Shown piece after piece: positions 15,654 to 24,769 of a DNA stretch of 44,459 nucleotides (positions within the stretch are counted from its first letter, which is position 1; each line of letters begins with the position of its first letter). The position numbers and the translations under genes are program-made. The stretch comes from a gamma proteobacterium HTCC2207 (GTDB taxonomy: Bacteria; Pseudomonadota; Gammaproteobacteria; Pseudomonadales; Porticoccaceae). The DNA is taken from the NCBI GenBank assembly GCA_905182275.1, contig CAJJAU010000029.1, positions 1 through 44,459 of the forward strand, written 5' to 3'. The notes beneath the pieces are model-generated. The model was not told the DNA's origin. It saw nothing but the letters and a program-made list of their open reading frames with translations, and did not search any database.

Positions 15654-17978
15654 TTAAAATTGATTTCCCAGCGAAAACTGGAAAACTTCTGTTTGATCAG
15701 CCTCATTTGAATTAAGGGGTTTGGCGATACTAAAAGTAATCGGACCAAAACCGCTTAACCAAGTTGCACCCAGACCGACCGAGTAACGCAGCTCACCCTC
15801 TTCAGGGCTATAACAATTTACCTCAAGATCACCACATTTGGTATTAAAAACATTACCTGCGTCAAAAAATATCGCTGACTGGACAGAGCGTTGATCTTTA
15901 ACAAACGGTAGAGGGAAAATAACCTCAGCACCTAAGACAATCTGAACATTACCACCCACTGGGCGAGCTCGAGAGTATCCCTGAGACATACTATTCTGGG
16001 GCCCTAGTGAGTATTTCTCATAACCCCTAACGGAGCCCAAACCACCGGCATAAAAATTCTTAAAGAATGGCATTTGGCTAGTGTCGCCAAAACTTTCACC
16101 ATACCCAAGATCGGCTTTTAACTTGAGTGTAAAGTCCCGTGTCAGCCCGCGTAGATGCGTCGCCTTATAGGTCAGTTTAAAAAACTCCAACCCCGACCCT
16201 GGCATAGCCAAATCAATACCAAGTCGCTGTGATGTTCCACGAGTAGCAAAGATTCCTCGATTCAATGTAGATTTGACCCAATTGATGTTGAAATTAAGCG
16301 AACGGAACCAATCACCATTAGCTGCAACAAAGTCTTCGATAACCGGGGAGCTCGTATAGTCGCCCAGATCTAACTCTAGCTCCTCAAAGGTGAAACCAAA
16401 CCCGATGCGCTGCACCTCAGATACGGGGTAGCTCCAAGTGACACTTGCACCCTTAGTATTTTGAGAAAACGGCTGCAACCTAAGTTTACTATAATCGGTC
16501 TCTCGTAAATAAATGCTGTAGCCGGCACTCACGCCATCGACTGTAAAGTAAGGCTCAGAATAACTGAAATTAAGCGAGCTCTGGTATGCGCTCTTATTGA
16601 TACCAACACCCACCTGCTTACCTGTGCCGAAAAAGTTATTTTCAGTCAGGTTAGCACCCAACTGCAAACCGTAGCCCTGCGAATAACCCAGATTAGCTCC
16701 CACCGAGCCGGAGGGTTGCTCCTCTACGGTGTAGACTACATCAATCTGATCATTAGTTCCCGCAACTGGAATGTTTTCTACGCTCACTTCCTTAAAGAAA
16801 CCCACCCGCTCTAAGCGAACTTTAGACATCTCAATAAGCGCGTTATTAGCCGAGCCACCTTCCATTTGGCGCATCTCACGCCTCAAGACAGAATCGGCTG
16901 TTTTGGTGTTCCCCCGGAACTCGATACGTCTTACATAGGCGCGCATACCGGGCTTCACCAAAAAAGTGACAGTAGCCGTTTTGGTATCTTCATCAATCTC
17001 AGGATACCCTTCAACTTCGGCAAATGTGTATCCCTCATTACCTAGTCGCCGCGTTATGTAGTCGCTGGACGCTGTCATCAATGCCTGGGAGAATATGACC
17101 CCTTCCCGCAACAGGACCAGCGCACGAGCCTGAATTTCAGGAATAATAATGTCACCGGCCAGATCTATACCACTAATCGTGTAAACATCCCCCTCATCAA
17201 CATTAATGGTAATGAAAACAGACTCTTTGTCGGGGCTTACCGAGACCTGTGTGCTGAGCACTTGAAACTTTAGATAGCCTCTGTCCAAATACCAACTTTC
17301 AAGGGTTTCTAAATCTCCCGACAGCTTTTCTCTAGAATACTTGTCATCGCTGGTAATCCATGACAACCAGCCAGTTCTATTTTGTTCAAATTGCTCAAGA
17401 AGAGTCGGCTCGGCAAAATTACTATTACCGACAATATTAATATGGCGAATTTTAGCGACATCACCCTCATCAATATCGATGTTGACGGCAACTCGATTAC
17501 GCGGAAGCTCTTTAACTTCAGTTTGCACAAGCGCACCATAGCGCCCTTGGGAAACATACTGTCTTTGTAATTCTTGGCTCATACCCTCCAAAATTACTTG
17601 ACGGAAAATTTGACCCTCGGCCAACCCATTATCGCGGAGAGCGTCCATCAACTGGTCGGTTTCGATCGCCTTATTACCTTCAATGTTGATTTCAGTTACC
17701 GCTGGGCGCTCCACCAGACCAATGACCAAAATGCCATTCTCGCGAGCCATAATGACATCAGCAAAATAGCCCGTTCGGAAAAGCGATCTTGTCGCTTCTC
17801 GGACCGTGGTGTCATCAGCGGTATCACCCACACTGATTGGCAGTGCAGCAAATACTGTCCCCGCAGACACACGCTGAAGGCCCTCAATGCGTATATCTGA
17901 AACCTGAAAATCGTCAGCATAAGACACAGTAGACGTCATCAAAAACAATACAATCAAACCAATTAGCAGTTGCTTCAT
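15654..17978 (-). CDS. bamA: Outer membrane assembly factor BamA
   Basis: A 774-residue Omp85 protein, the core of the BAM complex that folds beta-barrels into the outer membrane. A signal peptide ends at VSYA, before DDFQVSDI. Five POTRA domains follow (about residues 24-420), each showing the I-x-I-x-G-N type pattern, for example NIEGNKAIETDQL and RRIEFRGNTKTADSVL. The barrel starts near SVGANLGYSQGYG. The loop-6 motif appears as VRGYEKYSLGP (VRGF/Y type). The chain ends in Phe (FSLGNQF), the normal C-terminal insertion signal. It lies 40 bases after rseP and 26 before skp. Confidence 0.97.
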   Translation of the reverse strand: MKQLLIGLIVLFLMTSTVSYADDFQVSDIRIEGLQRVSAGTVFAALPISVGDTADDTTVREATRSLFRTGYFADVIMARENGILVIGLVERPAVTEINIEGNKAIETDQLMDALRDNGLAEGQIFRQVILEGMSQELQRQYVSQGRYGALVQTEVKELPRNRVAVNIDIDEGDVAKIRHINIVGNSNFAEPTLLEQFEQNRTGWLSWITSDDKYSREKLSGDLETLESWYLDRGYLKFQVLSTQVSVSPDKESVFITINVDEGDVYTISGIDLAGDIIIPEIQARALVLLREGVIFSQALMTASSDYITRRLGNEGYTFAEVEGYPEIDEDTKTATVTFLVKPGMRAYVRRIEFRGNTKTADSVLRREMRQMEGGSANNALIEMSKVRLERVGFFKEVSVENIPVAGTNDQIDVVYTVEEQPSGSVGANLGYSQGYGLQLGANLTENNFFGTGKQVGVGINKSAYQSSLNFSYSEPYFTVDGVSAGYSIYLRETDYSKLRLQPFSQNTKGASVTWSYPVSEVQRIGFGFTFEELELDLGDYTSSPVIEDFVAANGDWFRSLNFNINWVKSTLNRGIFATRGTSQRLGIDLAMPGSGLEFFKLTYKATHLRGLTRDFTLKLKADLGYGESFGDTSQMPFFKNFYAGGLGSVRGYEKYSLGPQNSMSQGYSRARPVGGNVQIVLGAEVIFPLPFVKDQRSVQSAIFFDAGNVFNTKCGDLEVNCYSPEEGELRYSVGLGATWLSGFGPITFSIAKPLNSNEADQTEVFQFSLGNQF

Positions 17979-18018: not shown

Positions 18019-19395
18019 TCAAAATGGACGCATGAGATCATTAAATGTGGCAAATACCATCAAGCTTATAAGCATTGCAAACCCTGCCTTATAGCCAGCA
18101 AGTTGAATCCGTTCAGAGACTGGAGATCCTTTTATTACTTCGACCAAAATGAACACTATGTGGCCCCCATCTAAGACGGGAATAGGCATCAGGTTCATCA
18201 CGCCAAGCATTATACTCAGAATAGCGACAAAGCGGATAAAATTATCCATGCCCGAACGTGCAGTATCACCCGCGACTTTAGCAATGGTGATCGGTCCACT
18301 CAGATTTTTAGGACTGAGGTTACCAGAGACTAACTTACCAACCGATTTAACGACAAAAATACAGTTATCAACAACCTCTTGAAATGCCCTGGGTATAGCG
18401 CTGAGAGGGCCATATTCAATTTCTGTTATCAGCGATTCTGGGTAGGTAACACTCGAAGATAACTGGATACCTAACTGCCCGACTTTCCTGCCTTCTCTCA
18501 TGACACTCTCTGGAGTGGCATATATATCTAGATTACTGACAGCTCCATCCGCATCAAGCCTTTCAATACTTAACTTGAGAGACTCATTGGTACTCTCAGA
18601 AATCTGGTCAATAAATACACTAACCGAGGTTATGGCAACATCATTAACCGCCATGAGCTGATCATTCGCCAATAAGCCTGCTCTATCACCTGCAGCGGCC
18701 TCAACAACTTTGGAAATAGACAGTGAATCAAGAACAAAAGGCGGTGAGATCCCAAGTGTTCTAAGCGGCATAGGTGCTTCTTCTTTAGCTAACCAGTCAA
18801 CAACCGGGACAAGTAGCTCATAGCGAATAGCACTATCAGGATAAGTCACTGAAAAAGGAATATTGCCGCTAGTCCCAATATAGTCGAATAACTCTCGGGA
18901 CACAGATGCCCATGAATCCGTCGGATTACCGGCAATATCGACGATCTCCATACCCGATTCAAAACCGGATTGTTGGGCAATTGATGTAGGCTTAACTTCG
19001 CCAATCACTGGCGTCAAACCGCGCTCGCCCCCTAGAAAAATGAACCAAAAAATCACCCCAGCCAGCAAGAAGTTGGCTATTGGACCCGCGCTGATTATTG
19101 CCAAGCGCTGTAAAGGACTTTTCCTATTAAAGGCGAAAGGAGCATCCTCGGGTGCTACGTCACCCACACGCTCATCAAGCATCCTAACGTAGCCCCCTAG
19201 AGGCAGAATGGCGAAAATAAATTCGGTACCCTGTTTGTCATGCCACTTGAAAAGCGCTTTTCCAAAGCCAATAGAAAACTGCTCTACACGCACACCACAG
19301 CGCCGAGCCACCCAAAAATGACCGAACTCGTGAAAGGTCACTAATGTGCCAAGTGCAATAAACGTATAAAAAATCGTCAAACTTATATCCAGCAT
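18019..19395 (-). CDS. rseP: Site-2 zinc metalloprotease RseP
   Basis: A 458-residue inner-membrane protease that makes the second cut in anti-sigma factor RseA and so releases sigma E during envelope stress; it also clears signal peptides. The zinc site is HEFGH (H22, E23, H26) in the first membrane segment and D409 in NLMPIPVLDGGH near the C-terminus. Two PDZ domains lie between (about residues 115-200 and 205-290). The gene starts one base away from the ispC stop, as usual for the ispC-rseP-bamA run. Confidence 0.96.
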   Translation of the reverse strand: MLDISLTIFYTFIALGTLVTFHEFGHFWVARRCGVRVEQFSIGFGKALFKWHDKQGTEFIFAILPLGGYVRMLDERVGDVAPEDAPFAFNRKSPLQRLAIISAGPIANFLLAGVIFWFIFLGGERGLTPVIGEVKPTSIAQQSGFESGMEIVDIAGNPTDSWASVSRELFDYIGTSGNIPFSVTYPDSAIRYELLVPVVDWLAKEEAPMPLRTLGISPPFVLDSLSISKVVEAAAGDRAGLLANDQLMAVNDVAITSVSVFIDQISESTNESLKLSIERLDADGAVSNLDIYATPESVMREGRKVGQLGIQLSSSVTYPESLITEIEYGPLSAIPRAFQEVVDNCIFVVKSVGKLVSGNLSPKNLSGPITIAKVAGDTARSGMDNFIRFVAILSIMLGVMNLMPIPVLDGGHIVFILVEVIKGSPVSERIQLAGYKAGFAMLISLMVFATFNDLMRPF

Positions 19396-20580
19396 CTAAG
19401 ACTCTATCCTCGAAACGTAGGCAGCGGCAAAACTGCGAGCTTTTGTATCGGACTCTTGGACTGCAATAAGTGACCGAGGTTCACTAAATATAGCATTAGA
19501 CAGCGACTCTTTGACAACATCGGCAATTTGAGTAAAACCAATGCGCCGATCTAAAAAAGCTTGGACCGCAATTTCATTGGCAGCATTGAGCACTGCGGGT
19601 GCATCAAGGCCTATACGAGCAGACTCACATGCAAGTTCTAAACATGGGAAATCGGCAAAATTGGGACGCTCAAATTCAAGAAGAGAAACATCGAATAAAT
19701 CTAAATCCTTCACACCAGAGTCAATTCTTTCAGGCCATGCAAGTGCATGAGCGATCGGTGTACGCATATCTGGATTACCTAATTGAGCAATAACTGACCC
19801 GTCAATATATTGAACAAGCGAGTGAATAATACTCTGCGGATGGACCACTATCTCGACCTGATCTGCCGGCATATCGAACAGCCAACACGCTTCAATCAAC
19901 TCTAACCCTTTATTCATCAGAGTCGCCGAATCAACCGAAATTTTATTCCCCATGCTCCAATTTGGATGAGCGCAAGCCTGCTCAGGGGTTACATTTTTCA
20001 TTTGATCAGCTGACCAACCTCGAAATGGACCACCGGAAGCCGACAATAATAGTTTACTGACCCCAATTGCCGACAAATCGTGCTTATTTTGCGGTAAACA
20101 TTGAAAAATCGCATTGTGCTCACTGTCGATAGGCAGCAAAACCGCCGACGAAGACTTGAGCGCTTGCATAAAAAGGTGTCCGGCCATTACCAAGGATTCT
20201 TTATTGGCCAACAACACCTTTTTGTTAGCATTGACTGCAGCCAGGGTCGGCATAAGACCCGCTGCACCGACAATAGCAGCCATCACTATATCGACCTCGC
20301 TATCGCTGGAGACCGCGCAAAGAGCATCGGTGCCAACAAGTACCTCGATAGGCGTATCTAGAGTCGCCAACAGACCCCTCAGGTGAACGGCAGTATCATC
20401 ATCCATTACCACAGCGTACCGTGGTCGATGTTTTCTACACTGCTCGGCCAGCACACTCACTTTGGTGTTACCGGAGAGTGCAAAAACGCTATAACGTTCA
20501 GGATGACGAGCCACCACATCCAGGGTGCTAACGCCAATAGACCCCGTTGCGCCCAGTACTGTTATCTGCTGAAGTATCAA
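19396..20580 (-). CDS. ispC: 1-deoxy-D-xylulose-5-phosphate reductoisomerase
   Basis: A 394-residue enzyme of the MEP isoprenoid pathway, converting DXP to MEP with NADPH (the fosmidomycin target). The NADPH motif [13 protein letters not shown] starts at residue 10. Metal ligands D152 and E154 are in [11 protein letters not shown], and [12 protein letters not shown] and [12 protein letters not shown] follow. The start is TTG at 20580 and overlaps the cdsA stop as TTGA; no in-frame ATG precedes the nucleotide-binding loop. The ribosome-binding site is poor, so translation probably depends on coupling to cdsA. Also called dxr. Confidence 0.96.
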
Positions 20581-21404
20581 GAGGAATAGACCCCGAGCAC
20601 AAGCGCATATAACGGCAGCGCTGCCATGATGCCATCAATGCGATCCAAGACGCCGCCATGACCGGGAAGCAAAGCGCCGCTATCCTTCACACCGCTGTTA
20701 CGTTTGACCATACTTTCAAACAAATCACCAACCACCGAATAAAGCGCGACGGGAAATACTAACAGCGACAGTTTGATGAAAGAAATTTCTGCAGGGAGAT
20801 ATACTGCCAAGCTAGCAATTAGTAATAACTGAAAAACCATTCCACCAAGAAAACCTTCCCACGTTTTACCTGGGCTCACCAGTGGTGCTAGCTTGTGCTT
20901 ACCAAACAACTTGCCAGCAACAAAGCCGCCAACGTCAGCCAAAACAACAATGATGACACCGACCAGCAACCCCCACTGAGCGTAATCACTGGCCAAAATA
21001 GAGACCACCGACAACCACGTAAAAGTCAGAAGCATTAGACCCAAGATGCCTAGAATAGGCCTTGGAGACCATAGAATAGAACTTGACGGGTAACCTTGAA
21101 CCCACAGGAATATTACCGCCCACAAAGCCGCTGCCCCAAGCAGAATGTTGTGAGCCCGTTGAGGCTGAAAGCTATCGGGCATGCCTAACCAAAAGGCCGC
21201 GGCAGCGAGGATACAGACCAATACTATGAGGTACCCAACTCTACCAGCAGTAGAGTCAATTTTGATGAGCTTGGACCACTCCCAAGCCGCAATCAAAACT
21301 AAAGGTATGATGGCGATAGCAAAACCAATACTAGGCAATAGAAATAACATCGCTACAAATAATAATGCCATACCAACTGCGGTTATTATTCTTTGTTTAA
21401 GCAT
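20577..21404 (-). CDS. cdsA: Phosphatidate cytidylyltransferase CdsA
   Basis: A 275-residue membrane enzyme that makes CDP-diacylglycerol from phosphatidate and CTP, the branch point of phospholipid synthesis. About eight hydrophobic segments are visible. The C-terminal signature [25 protein letters not shown] is complete, preceded by [12 protein letters not shown]. In most gammaproteobacteria this gene is directly preceded by uppS; here the next gene upstream is frr, 130 bases away (see findings). A 7-1-7 inverted repeat, ACAAACA-c-TGTTTGT (21420-21434), lies 16 bases before the start codon and could affect its expression. Confidence 0.95.
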
Positions 21405-21419
21405 CTAATCATCCAATCT

Positions 21420-21434
21420 ACAAACACTGTTTGT
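21420..21434. repeat. Short perfect inverted repeat before cdsA
   Basis: ACAAACA and TGTTTGT are separated by one base, in the spacer between frr and cdsA. The single-base loop makes an RNA hairpin of this size unlikely, so a dimeric protein-binding site is the better guess. It does not match the LexA consensus. No regulator can be named. Confidence 0.35.
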
Positions 21435-21534
21435 TTTAAAATAGCGAAAGGTATATCGATAATACCAACACTATTGCAGCAACCAGAGACCCCTCTTATT
21501 GCTTGCGAATATGCGTCCCTGTCAGGTAAGGAGA

Positions 21535-22095
21535 TTAAATCTCCATCAAATCCTTTTCTTTAGCAGCCAAGGATTCGTCTACTCGACCAACGAAACGATC
21601 GGTTATTTTTTGGATGTCATCATTAGCTTTGCGTTCTTCGTCTTCACTAATATCTTTTTCTTTCAGCAGATCTTTCACATCTGAAAGAATGTCGCGCCGA
21701 ATATTACGAATAGAAACTCTGGCATTCTCGGCTTCCGCCTTGGCTTGCTTACCGTAGGTCTTGCGTGTTTCTTCGGTCAGTGCCGGGAGCGGAATACGAA
21801 TAACTGTACCCGCGGTAGATGGATTCAAACCCAAGTCAGACTTCATTATCGCTTTTTCAATATCCGGAACCAGCGACCTTTCCCACGGTGTAACTGATAA
21901 CGTCCGTGAATCCTCAACAACAATCGATGCTGCTTGAGATAAGGGAGTGTCAACCCCATAGTAGTCAACAGAGATCCCGTTCAGCAAGCTAGAGTGCGCT
22001 CGACCGGTACGGATTTTATTAAAGGCGTTCGCCAGAGCGTCCAACGATTTGGACATTCGCGCTTCTGCATCACTCTTAAGTTCTTCAATCATCAT
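21535..22095 (-). CDS. frr: Ribosome recycling factor
   Basis: A 186-residue RRF, which splits the post-termination ribosome together with EF-G. The sequence matches the family end to end: [57 protein letters not shown] and the C-terminal charged helix. It begins with two ATG codons in a row (22095 and 22092); either could serve, after GAGAGA. It starts eight bases after pyrH. Confidence 0.97.
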
Positions 22096-22103
22096 TTAAT
22101 CTC

Positions 22104-22835
22104 TCAGTCTTCTTCTATCAGCGTGCCTTCATCGCCGCCGACAACAAGATTTAATAAAGCGCCTTGCTTAGACATTCTGAACACCCGCAAAGGCATTTTG
22201 TGCTCGCGACACAGACAAATAGCCGTCAAATCCATAACACCGAGCTTCTTGTCCAGAACTTCATCATAGGTCAGGCTAGAATATAGCTCTGCTTTGGGGT
22301 CAAGCATGGGATCCGCACTGTAGACTCCATCGACCTTAGTCGCTTTGAGTACCACATCAGCATTAATTTCAATACCACGCAAACAGGCCGCAGAATCGGT
22401 AGTGAAAAAGGGATTGCCGGTTCCCGCCGCAAAAATAACAACGTCACCGTCTTTTAAGTAGCGTATCGCGCGTCGGCGATCATAGTGCTCAACAACACCG
22501 CTCATAGGAATGGCTGACATGACTTGAGACGATATATTAGTCCGCTCCAGCGCATCTCTCATCGCCAAAGCGTTCATCACCGTGGCCAACATTCCCATGT
22601 GGTCACCAGTAACACGATCCATTCCGGCTGCATTTAATGCCGCACCGCGAAACAGGTTACCGCCCCCGATCACTAGCCCGACCTGAACACCGATACCAAC
22701 TAGCTGACCGATTTCTAACGCCATACGATCAAGGACCTTGGGATCTATACCAAAGCCCTCACTACCCATCAATTCCTCTCCACTGAGCTTGAGAAGAATG
22801 CGCTTGTACTGCTTTTGATTACCAGAAACTGTCAT
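22104..22835 (-). CDS. pyrH: UMP kinase
   Basis: A 243-residue hexameric bacterial UMP kinase of the amino acid kinase family, phosphorylating UMP to UDP. Visible are [12 protein letters not shown] (the phosphate loop), GIQ-like [33 protein letters not shown] and [16 protein letters not shown]. It lies between tsf and frr with gaps of 18 and 8 bases, the standard order. Confidence 0.97.
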
Positions 22836-22853
22836 AACGATTCCTAATATTAG

Positions 22854-23714
22854 TTAGCTAGCACCCTTAACCTGTGCGGCAACTTCTGCCGCAAAATCAA
22901 CTTCCTCTACTTCGATTCCCTCGCCGACTTCATAGCGAACAAATGATATAACCTCTGCCCCTGCGGCCTTAACTAATTTGCCGACGGTCACATCAGGGTC
23001 TTTTACAAACGGCTGATCAACGAGACTGCTCTCTTTTAAGAACTTGCTCACTCGTCCAGCAATCATTTTCTCAATGATTTCCTCGGGCTTACCGCTCTCT
23101 CTGGCTTGCGCCGCATAAATTTCCTTCTCAGCAGCAACCACTTCTGGAGACATCTGATCTGAGCTCACCACTGCAGGATTCACCGCTGCCACATGCATTG
23201 CTACATCTTTAGCAAGAGCCTCGTCACCACCGCTAAGGCCTACTATAACAGCGATTCTGTTGTTACTGTGAACATATCCACCAACCACGGCTGCATCGAT
23301 ATTAGAGACTCTACGTGGCGAAATATTCTCGCCAATTTTCTGCACTAGAGCTTCTCTCAAAGACTCTAGCTCACCTGACATCAACGCTGCCATGTCAGTT
23401 TGTTTGGAGTCAAAAGCTGCGTCGACTACGGTTTGAACAAACCCTTGAAAACCTTCGTCTCTAGCAACAAAGTCAGTCTCACTGTTAATTTCAACAACTA
23501 CACCAAACCCACCGTCAACTTTCACCGACACGAGTCCGTCAGCTGCGGTACGACCAGCTTTTTTCGCCGCCTTCATACCACTCGACTTGCGCAACTCTTC
23601 AATTGCCTTGTCGATATCAGCACCGGCCTCAACCAGAGCTCTCTTACATTCCATCATTCCTAAACCAGTGCGCTCGCGCAGATCTTTTACTAATGCTGAT
23701 GTTACCTGTGACAT
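22854..23714 (-). CDS. tsf: Elongation factor Ts
   Basis: A 286-residue nucleotide-exchange factor for EF-Tu. The N-terminal signature VKDLRERTGLGMMECKRALV and the core NSETDFVARD are plain. The frame is open further upstream, but I place the start at the ATG at 23714 (giving MSQVTSAL), six bases after an AGAGG site. The extra upstream codons would run through the rpsB-tsf hairpin and match nothing in the family. A second ATG directly before it (23717) is three bases from the same site. Confidence 0.96.
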   Translation of the reverse strand: MSQVTSALVKDLRERTGLGMMECKRALVEAGADIDKAIEELRKSSGMKAAKKAGRTAADGLVSVKVDGGFGVVVEINSETDFVARDEGFQGFVQTVVDAAFDSKQTDMAALMSGELESLREALVQKIGENISPRRVSNIDAAVVGGYVHSNNRIAVIVGLSGGDEALAKDVAMHVAAVNPAVVSSDQMSPEVVAAEKEIYAAQARESGKPEEIIEKMIAGRVSKFLKESSLVDQPFVKDPDVTVGKLVKAAGAEVISFVRYEVGEGIEVEEVDFAAEVAAQVKGAS

Positions 23715-23740
23715 CATATTCCTCTCATAATCGTGTTTTT

Positions 23741-23772
23741 CGTTTAAAATAAAGGGGGCCAAAACCCCCTTT
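23741..23772 (-). terminator. Hairpin attenuator between rpsB and tsf
   Basis: Read on the minus strand, AAAGGGGG, a six-base loop (TTTTGG) and CCCCCTTT form an 8-bp perfect stem, followed by the T-rich ATTTTAAA. It lies between the rpsB stop and the tsf start. A partial terminator at this point is known in E. coli, where it lowers tsf relative to rpsB. The tail is only moderately T-rich, so read-through is likely. Confidence 0.75.
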
Positions 23773-23796: not shown

Positions 23797-24621
23797 TTAT
23801 ACCGCTTCGTCGGCCTTTGGCGCTTCTGCGACAACCTCGACTTGCGGCTCAGCAGCTTCTACCTCAGCTATGACCTCAGGTGCAGCTGTAACATCTTCAG
23901 TTTGCTCTACAAACTCGTCTTTACTAGTGATAGTTGCAGACTGTGCTTTGCCTTCTAGTACTGCATCGGCAATTGAAGCAGCGTAAAGCTTAATGGCTCG
24001 AATAGAATCGTCGTTACCTGGAATGATGTAATCAACACCGTCCGGATTACTATTCGAATCAACAATACCCACTACTGGAATACCTAGCTTGTTAGCCTCA
24101 TTGATCGCAATACGCTCGTGATCAACATCAACGACAAACAAAATATCAGGCAAGCCATTCATATCCTTGATACCACCGATAGAATTCTCGAGCTTATCTT
24201 TCATACGCGTTCGCGTTAGAACTTCTTTCTTGTTCAGCTTGTCGAACGTACCATCGCTTTCCTGAGACTCTAGATCTCGAAAACGACGAATGGATGCTCT
24301 AATCGTTTTATAATTGGTGAGCATACCGCCCAACCAACGATGACTTACATAAGGCATATCGCAACGTTCGGCTTGCTCTTTAATAATTTTCTGCGCAGCT
24401 CTTTTGGTACCCACAAATAATATCTGGTTACCTTTTGCTGCTTCAACACGAAGAATTTCCAGGGCTTCGTTAAAAGCTGGAACTGTGTGCTCTAAATTAA
24501 TGACGTGAACTTTGTTTCGTGAGCCGAAAATAAACTGACTCATCTTGGGGTTCCAGAAGCGGGTTTGGTGGCCAAAGTGCACACCAGCCTGCAACATATC
24601 GCGCATACTGACAATAGACAT
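23797..24621 (-). CDS. rpsB: 30S ribosomal protein S2
   Basis: A 274-residue S2. [20 protein letters not shown] and [20 protein letters not shown] are the family signatures. The C-terminus carries a tail of about 40 residues rich in Glu, Ala and Val (from EFVEQTEDV onward), longer than in E. coli (241 residues). The start is the ATG at 24621 with AGAGGA about six bases upstream. The frame stays open upstream through the structured leader, but that part is not S2. It is the first gene of the long minus-strand cluster. Confidence 0.97.
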
Positions 24622-24769
24622 AATTTTTCCTCTTGGGGTTAAGCCTCCACATCCCCCAAAGATCAACCCGCAGAGCAATAATTCACAATGCAAGCACCCA
24701 GACCTTCGTGTCGGAACGTGTGTGTCGTTTAACTAGCTATAAAATAGTTGCAGGTTCATTCCTACAACG
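24622..24769 (-). promoter_or_regulatory. Structured rpsB leader, candidate S2 autoregulatory region
   Basis: An untranslated leader of about 148 bases lies between the predicted transcription start and the rpsB ATG. A 6-bp perfect stem (TTGGGG on the minus strand at 24659-24654, CCCCAA at 24638-24633) closes just before the AGAGGA ribosome-binding site. In gammaproteobacteria the rpsB leader is known to be conserved and to mediate repression of rpsB-tsf by S2. That this leader acts the same way is inferred from position and from the hairpin at the binding site. Confidence 0.55.

Follow-up and report, generated by a model that had tools for sequence, protein, structure and literature searches.

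In one sub-clade of the SAR92 genus the essential gene uppS has very probably been displaced by an archaeal-type homologue, which is found elsewhere in the genome (xenologous displacement). UppS is essential for the cell and is a studied drug target. The window, i.e. the whole stretch of 44,459 nucleotides that was analysed, belongs to a SAR92-clade (Porticoccaceae) MAG of 2.02 Mb in 88 contigs that is 91% complete. A sequence-only reading of the window had claimed that frr and cdsA are separated by only 130 bases with no uppS between them, and that rpsB, tsf, pyrH, frr, cdsA, ispC, rseP and bamA are otherwise in place. Both claims are borne out by the ORF coordinates and the Pfam matches: the spacer is exactly 130 bases long and lacks uppS, and the genes of the run follow each other in the expected order (Table 1). 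An OmpH-like gene was also identified with Pfam at its expected place in the run.

Table 1. Positions in the window of the genes of the run and of the spacer between frr and cdsA.
Feature	Position	Strand	Pfam match or remark
bamA	15654..17978	-	PF01103 + POTRA
rseP	18019..19395	-	PF02163 + PDZ
ispC/dxr	19396..20580	-	PF02670, PF08436, PF13288
cdsA (CDP-diacylglycerol synthase)	20577..21404	-	PF01148 (CTP_transf_1), E 7e-55
frr-cdsA spacer, former uppS site	21405..21534		no recognisable remnant in window genome
frr (ribosome recycling factor)	21535..22095	-	PF01765 (RRF), E 1e-64
pyrH	22104..22835	-	PF00696; name from position in run
tsf	22854..23762	-	PF00889
rpsB	23797..24693	-	PF00318

In other families of the order, uppS was found between frr and cdsA in all 17 loci examined; E. 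coli K-12 has dxr between frr and ispU. The spacer of the window, compared with canonical SAR92 UppS, gave a score of 28, the mean of dinucleotide-shuffled spacers being 27.4, and 81 of 200 shuffles scored as high. No remnant of uppS is recognisable in the window's own spacer, whose score is no better than that of the shuffles. The earlier statement that no remnant can be recognised is therefore correct for the window, but not for the sister genomes G007 and G015, where the tail of the native gene persists. A scan of positions 21300-21700 gave no terminator-like site, and the promoter scan of the same region gave three promoter-like sites, all on the plus strand, opposite to the genes.

The genome-wide search for a cis-prenyltransferase that had been proposed together with the sequence-only reading gave one homologue with an archaeal-type motif. 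It is located on contig C74 (28588-29259, minus strand), is an intact ORF and is the sole PF01255 gene obtained in a profile search of the contigs of the window genome (E 2.3e-81). The match has 272.4 bits against the curated cut-off of 27 and covers positions 1-219 of 219. The window genome being 91% complete, a further copy in the missing part is conceivable when that genome is taken alone. In the C74 enzyme the motifs read LIVDGNRRFA and RTSGEERLSGFLLWQSA; their counterparts in the canonical SAR92 genes among those listed are (I/V)IMDGNNRWA and RTAGEQRISNFLLWQ. It carries the archaeal-type signature DGNRRFA...RTSGEERLSGFLLWQ. The SAR92 enzyme belongs to the archaeal type by its DGNRR and SGEERLSGFLLWQ motifs and also by the tree, where it groups with archaeal sequences and the ten canonical rows split off at 100/99. 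Asgard homologues are up to 58% identical to it, the canonical uppS genes of the SAR92 sister species only 37-44%.

The sequence-only reading had left two possibilities, that uppS had moved or that a different prenyltransferase does the job, and the second of these is the one that stood. Judged by its sequence, the C74 gene, the only PF01255 gene of the genome, is an archaeal-type enzyme different from the native uppS and not the native gene relocated. A move of the native uppS to contig C74 with subsequent divergence, which would explain why there is one PF01255 gene only and why it is elsewhere in the genome, is highly improbable: the gene shares the archaeal-type motifs, its identity is 58-66% to the other gammaproteobacterial members and up to 58% to Asgard, but 37-44% to canonical genes from within the genus, and in the archaeal-type tree SAR92 and the other gammaproteobacterial sequences are joined at 100/100. 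The approximately unbiased (AU) test with a canonical outgroup did not reject SAR92 and the canonical sequences on one side (p 0.515), which agrees with a move, but this value is read as a long outgroup branch left unplaced, since SAR92 and the other gammaproteobacterial sequences are joined at 100/100 without the outgroup.

The survey of the genus comprised 50 genomes: 10 with the archaeal type (79-100% identity to that of the window genome), 32 with the canonical type (37-44%), eight with neither and none with both. The eight genomes with neither type are 73-88% complete. The frr-cdsA junction was examined at 30 loci of the genus, 19 with the canonical uppS in place and 11 without it. The 11 uppS-less spacers are 85-164 bp long and mutually alike within sub-branches. 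Nine of these 11 genomes are among the 10 with the archaeal type, the tenth of which (G828) lies outside the junction set. The remaining two, G025 (88% complete) and G027 (76%), have the uppS-less junction and no UppS was detected in them at all; a replacement is presumed for these two as well. That the clade might normally carry uppS elsewhere, as the sequence-only reading had allowed, applies only to the sub-clade and not to the genus, where the canonical type is in place in 19/19 such loci examined. In a tree of Frr, CdsA and IspC with 30 SAR92 and four outgroup rows, the 11 uppS-less genomes form one clade (94/100). The archaeal-type UppS tree, which took in eight of the 10 SAR92 sequences, joins SAR92 in a single clade (100/100) and divides it into the same two sub-branches as the Frr, CdsA and IspC tree. 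The pattern is that of xenologous displacement, with the native gene present in the sisters and absent here, a foreign homologue present and the two never found together.

In the canonical SAR92 loci the stop of uppS overlaps the start of cdsA by 8 bp (19/19 loci). The spacers of G007 (L035) and G015 (L037) encode a decayed UppS C-terminus, in frame. The L037 tail KLYFSEYFWLDFDSKPLDIVVKDHYSHHGLFG has 44% identity over 32 residues to the canonical ELYFADCYWPDFDSAALDLAIDEYYSRQRRFG. Local alignment gave a score of 77 for L035 (shuffle maximum 42) and of 87 for L037 (shuffle maximum 41), with 0/200 shuffles reaching the observed score in each case; for the other nine uppS-less spacers, the window included, 12 to 183 of 200 shuffles did so. 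Both tails are in the native frame relative to cdsA. Their FG motif is at a distance of 52 nt from it, the range in the 19 canonical loci being 40-58, and they end, like the canonical genes, with a stop that overlaps the start of cdsA. The spacers of G003, G028 and G024 have a likeness, by eye and not significant, to the final ~50 nt only. Two of the 11 uppS-less spacers still show what is left of the native gene, and the window has no detectable trace of it; together the spacers look like a deletion of the native uppS followed by decay, caught at different stages.

The absence of uppS at the junction is real, and an assembly artefact is very unlikely because 11 of the 30 frr-cdsA loci of the genus lack the gene. 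The window genome is a MAG of many contigs and incomplete, and a uppS truly located between frr and cdsA could in principle have been lost in assembly or binning. This is hardly credible, however, when 11 different assemblies from the genus have the same junction and their spacers are alike within sub-branches, when it recurs in 30/30 loci of a second set of genomes (see below), and when two genomes retain a decayed native tail.

The archaeal-type uppS adjoins an Hsp70-like gene and a DoxX gene in all nine SAR92 loci examined. Among the 48 genomes of the genus that were searched, the DoxX neighbour is found in exactly the 10 archaeal-type genomes, while the Hsp70-like gene is genus-wide (36/48). 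Import of the Hsp70 neighbour along with uppS is ruled out by this genus-wide occurrence. Since DoxX is confined to the archaeal-type genomes and the Hsp70-like gene is not, uppS and DoxX probably arrived together, at one site next to the resident Hsp70-like gene. The Hsp70-like gene of C74 and two of its neighbours, presumably a sigma/anti-sigma pair, are grouped in one region in three of six canonical SAR92 regions examined, and a uppP gene (BacA, PF02673) is found about 5 kb from uppS on C74. Contig C74 is not likely to be a contaminant, because it bears both this SAR92-typical Hsp70-like region and uppP. The DoxX-family gene at L061:10015-10434 (minus strand) has counterparts in other archaeal-type SAR92 genomes and was probably co-acquired. 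Outside SAR92, four genomes (L086, L100, L104 and L112) likewise have a related Hsp70-like gene, 46-52% identical, no more than a few kb away from their archaeal-type uppS, in L104 directly upstream of it; the SAR92 Hsp70 is native to the genus.

The same pairing of an archaeal-type gene with a uppS-less junction occurs in other lineages. A scan of genome contigs gave 107 relatives, of which the best 80 were kept. Among these 80 there are 37 further Pseudomonadales/Gammaproteobacteria records at 58-66%, including the OM182 and K189A clades, followed at 46-58% by mainly Asgard and Thermoproteota, with two Janibacter and one Chloroflexota. The 37 genomes and the archaeon G090 (L113) made up a second set of 38. 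A single PF01255 gene was found in 37 of the 38, and G091 has a second, partial match. The frr gene was found in 35/38 and the junction was examined at 30 loci; in all 30, frr and cdsA lie about 5-172 bp apart without uppS. No frr was found in G090, as expected for an archaeon. A CDP-alcohol phosphatidyltransferase cluster lies beside the archaeal-type gene in 31/37 loci, and from this conserved setting the gene looks vertically inherited within the OM182/K189A-like set.

The sample of the order (390 genomes) had six genomes with the archaeal type, 372 with only canonical-level matches and 12 with none. The six are two SAR92 genomes and four of 17 in family f40; contig numbers and positions identify two of these f40 genes as the ones in L098 and L104. 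The class sample (369 genomes) gave five more past E 1e-64, in families f86, f164 and f194 (47-53%), which form a separate clade. This group corresponds to L240-L244 (G714, G495, G603, G784 and G573) and has its own archaeal-type UppS with the motif LILDGNRRFA. Of the 398 Pseudomonadota genomes sampled for the phylum, none but the window genome had a gene past E 1e-64. A viral origin was rejected, as none of 22 pattern stretches in viral contigs is a relative. Phage records gave 25 matches, of which the 20 listed are at 32-44% identity, 15 of those 20 without annotation. The UppS of L194 (G422:C29:33260-33994) is at the canonical identity level and has one in-frame TAG.

Rooted on Thermoproteota, the tree has SAR92 and the other gammaproteobacterial sequences within Asgard, as a clade supported at 100/100; of the outgroup rows, L120 alone was placed elsewhere. 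The gammaproteobacterial clade is joined with L113, L273, L275, L277 and L279 at 95/94, and the addition of L116 (Heimdallarchaeum endolithica) and L290 gives 86/91. A match was obtained in 174 of 195 genomes of the phylum of G090 (Heimdallarchaeota), in many of them at 47-58%. The AU test rejected a split that puts SAR92 and every Asgard row on the same side (p 4.5e-5); part of this rejection is forced by the split, because Asgard alone as one side was also rejected (p 0.023). With the canonical outgroup, all gammaproteobacterial sequences as one side were not rejected (p 0.283); this outgroup did not place the root (p 0.515 for SAR92 and canonical together), which counts against an archaeal origin. 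A position of SAR92 nested within the other gammaproteobacterial sequences was seen in one tree but found no support, the bootstrap on those forks being 26-29 without outgroup and the AU p 0.30-0.34 for the alternative.

On the furthest-reaching reading, an Asgard (Heimdall-like) enzyme would have fully replaced the native one at least two times in Pseudomonadales (SAR92 and OM182/K189A-like), other gammaproteobacterial families would hold one more archaeal-type lineage, and the carrier or the inhibitor profile might not be the same as with ordinary UppS; this wider proposal is possible rather than probable. A source in another bacterium, with the GNRR type old in some bacteria as well as in archaea and no transfer from archaea, has a probability only a little below even. 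It agrees with the nearest non-SAR92 relatives being other gammaproteobacteria (58-66%), with the split of all gammaproteobacterial from all archaeal members, which was not rejected (p 0.378), and with the bacterial members in three other gammaproteobacterial families, two Janibacter and one Chloroflexota, but not with the nesting in Asgard of the Thermoproteota-rooted tree (95/94; 86/91). A bacterial source is a matter of the ultimate donor and does not conflict with the displacement of uppS.

Among the Asgard sequences, the UppS of L116, L290, L293, L294, L297, L300 and L301 have DGNRRGS or DGNRRAS, without an aromatic residue after the two arginines. Several Asgard genomes have a cis-prenyltransferase that is only 36-40% identical to that of the window genome, and G939 and G941 carry one beside the archaeal-type gene.

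The positions chosen for comparison with E. coli UppS, which are taken here to be its catalytic and substrate-binding residues, are D26, R30, H43, S71, N74, R77, E81, R194, R200, S202 and E213 (E. coli numbering). All of them are conserved, as is the C-terminal RxG, in 10/10 SAR92 and in 37/37 other gammaproteobacterial sequences. A role of the C-terminal RxG is described in PMC7573591. The position of E. coli A69 is G in the SAR92 archaeal type and L in the two Janibacter relatives, and the position of L137 is F, as in 5/11 canonical sequences. In E. coli UppS, the substitution L137A makes the product longer, C75 instead of C55 (PMC7573591). The residues at the two chain-length positions, 69 and 137, would fit a C55 undecaprenyl diphosphate synthase. 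For the L070 protein, which is 96% identical, the AlphaFold2 model has a mean pLDDT of 85.6, low at 213-219, and its fold matches the human cis-prenyltransferase and bacterial UppS structures.

The archaeal-type enzyme most likely makes undecaprenyl diphosphate, as it is the sole cis-prenyltransferase found and the bacterium has uppP. A different product, a short chain or a longer polyprenol, with the undecaprenyl carrier made otherwise or of another length, is unlikely. The short-chain enzyme 2vg1 is the second-best PDB sequence match and the long-chain human DHDDS is among the top fold matches, but the window genome yielded no other cis-prenyltransferase, and the residues at positions 69 and 137, read with the C55 to C75 change of L137A (PMC7573591), speak against it.

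The enzyme resembles canonical UppS (ispU, E. coli K-12 b0174) in PF01255, the compared catalytic residues, RxG, the fold and the presumed reaction. It differs from it in the 37-44% identity to the uppS of sister species, in the location of the SAR92 gene outside the frr-uppS-cdsA cluster, in DGNRRFA as opposed to the canonical DGN(G/N/S/Q)RWA, and in RLSGF as opposed to R(I/V)SNF in the canonical rows matched by pattern. The Asgard/Heimdall and Thermoproteota enzymes share DGNRR with it, at 46-58% identity among the best 80 of 107 relatives, and SGE.RLSGFL(L/I)WQ is common to the SAR92 type, Asgard and some Thermoproteota. The SAR92 enzyme is unlike the archaeal ones in its bacterial host, presumably with a peptidoglycan carrier, and in the F at position 137 (Y or H in 13/15 Asgard). 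The actinobacterial short-chain type (2vg1/Rv1086; Janibacter L143 and L148) also has DGNRR and the SGFL(L/M)WQ stretch, whereas the A69 equivalent is Leu in L143 and L148 and Gly in SAR92. Rv1086 has a short-chain product and works alongside a second, long-chain enzyme.

The displacement would have begun when the ancestor of one SAR92 sub-clade acquired an archaeal-type cis-prenyltransferase gene, which together with the DoxX gene came to sit beside the resident Hsp70-like gene. The newcomer would have sufficed, and the native uppS between frr and cdsA would then have been deleted, its last codons decaying; the gain of the archaeal-type gene would accordingly have preceded the loss of the native one. 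The archaeal-type enzyme, as the only cis-prenyltransferase found, would join eight isopentenyl units to farnesyl diphosphate to give undecaprenyl diphosphate, probably as a homodimer, and would supply the carriers for peptidoglycan and LPS.

Gene displacement and the enzyme family are of known kinds. Literature listings on uppS and undecaprenyl in connection with archaea, Asgard, SAR92, displacement and gene order, some of them only the top of longer lists, gave no description of the present case with its intermediate stages and probable second occurrence. An annotation that relies on gene order or on the canonical motif (MDGNGRWA) would label these genomes as uppS-less. Several stages stand side by side in the genus, which is in this respect a natural experiment: some species have the old gene, some the new gene and a decaying remainder of the old, and in others the site has been wiped clean. 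Provided that the inferred function is right, a Gram-negative cell can live with an archaeal-type cis-prenyltransferase as its sole carrier-lipid synthase.
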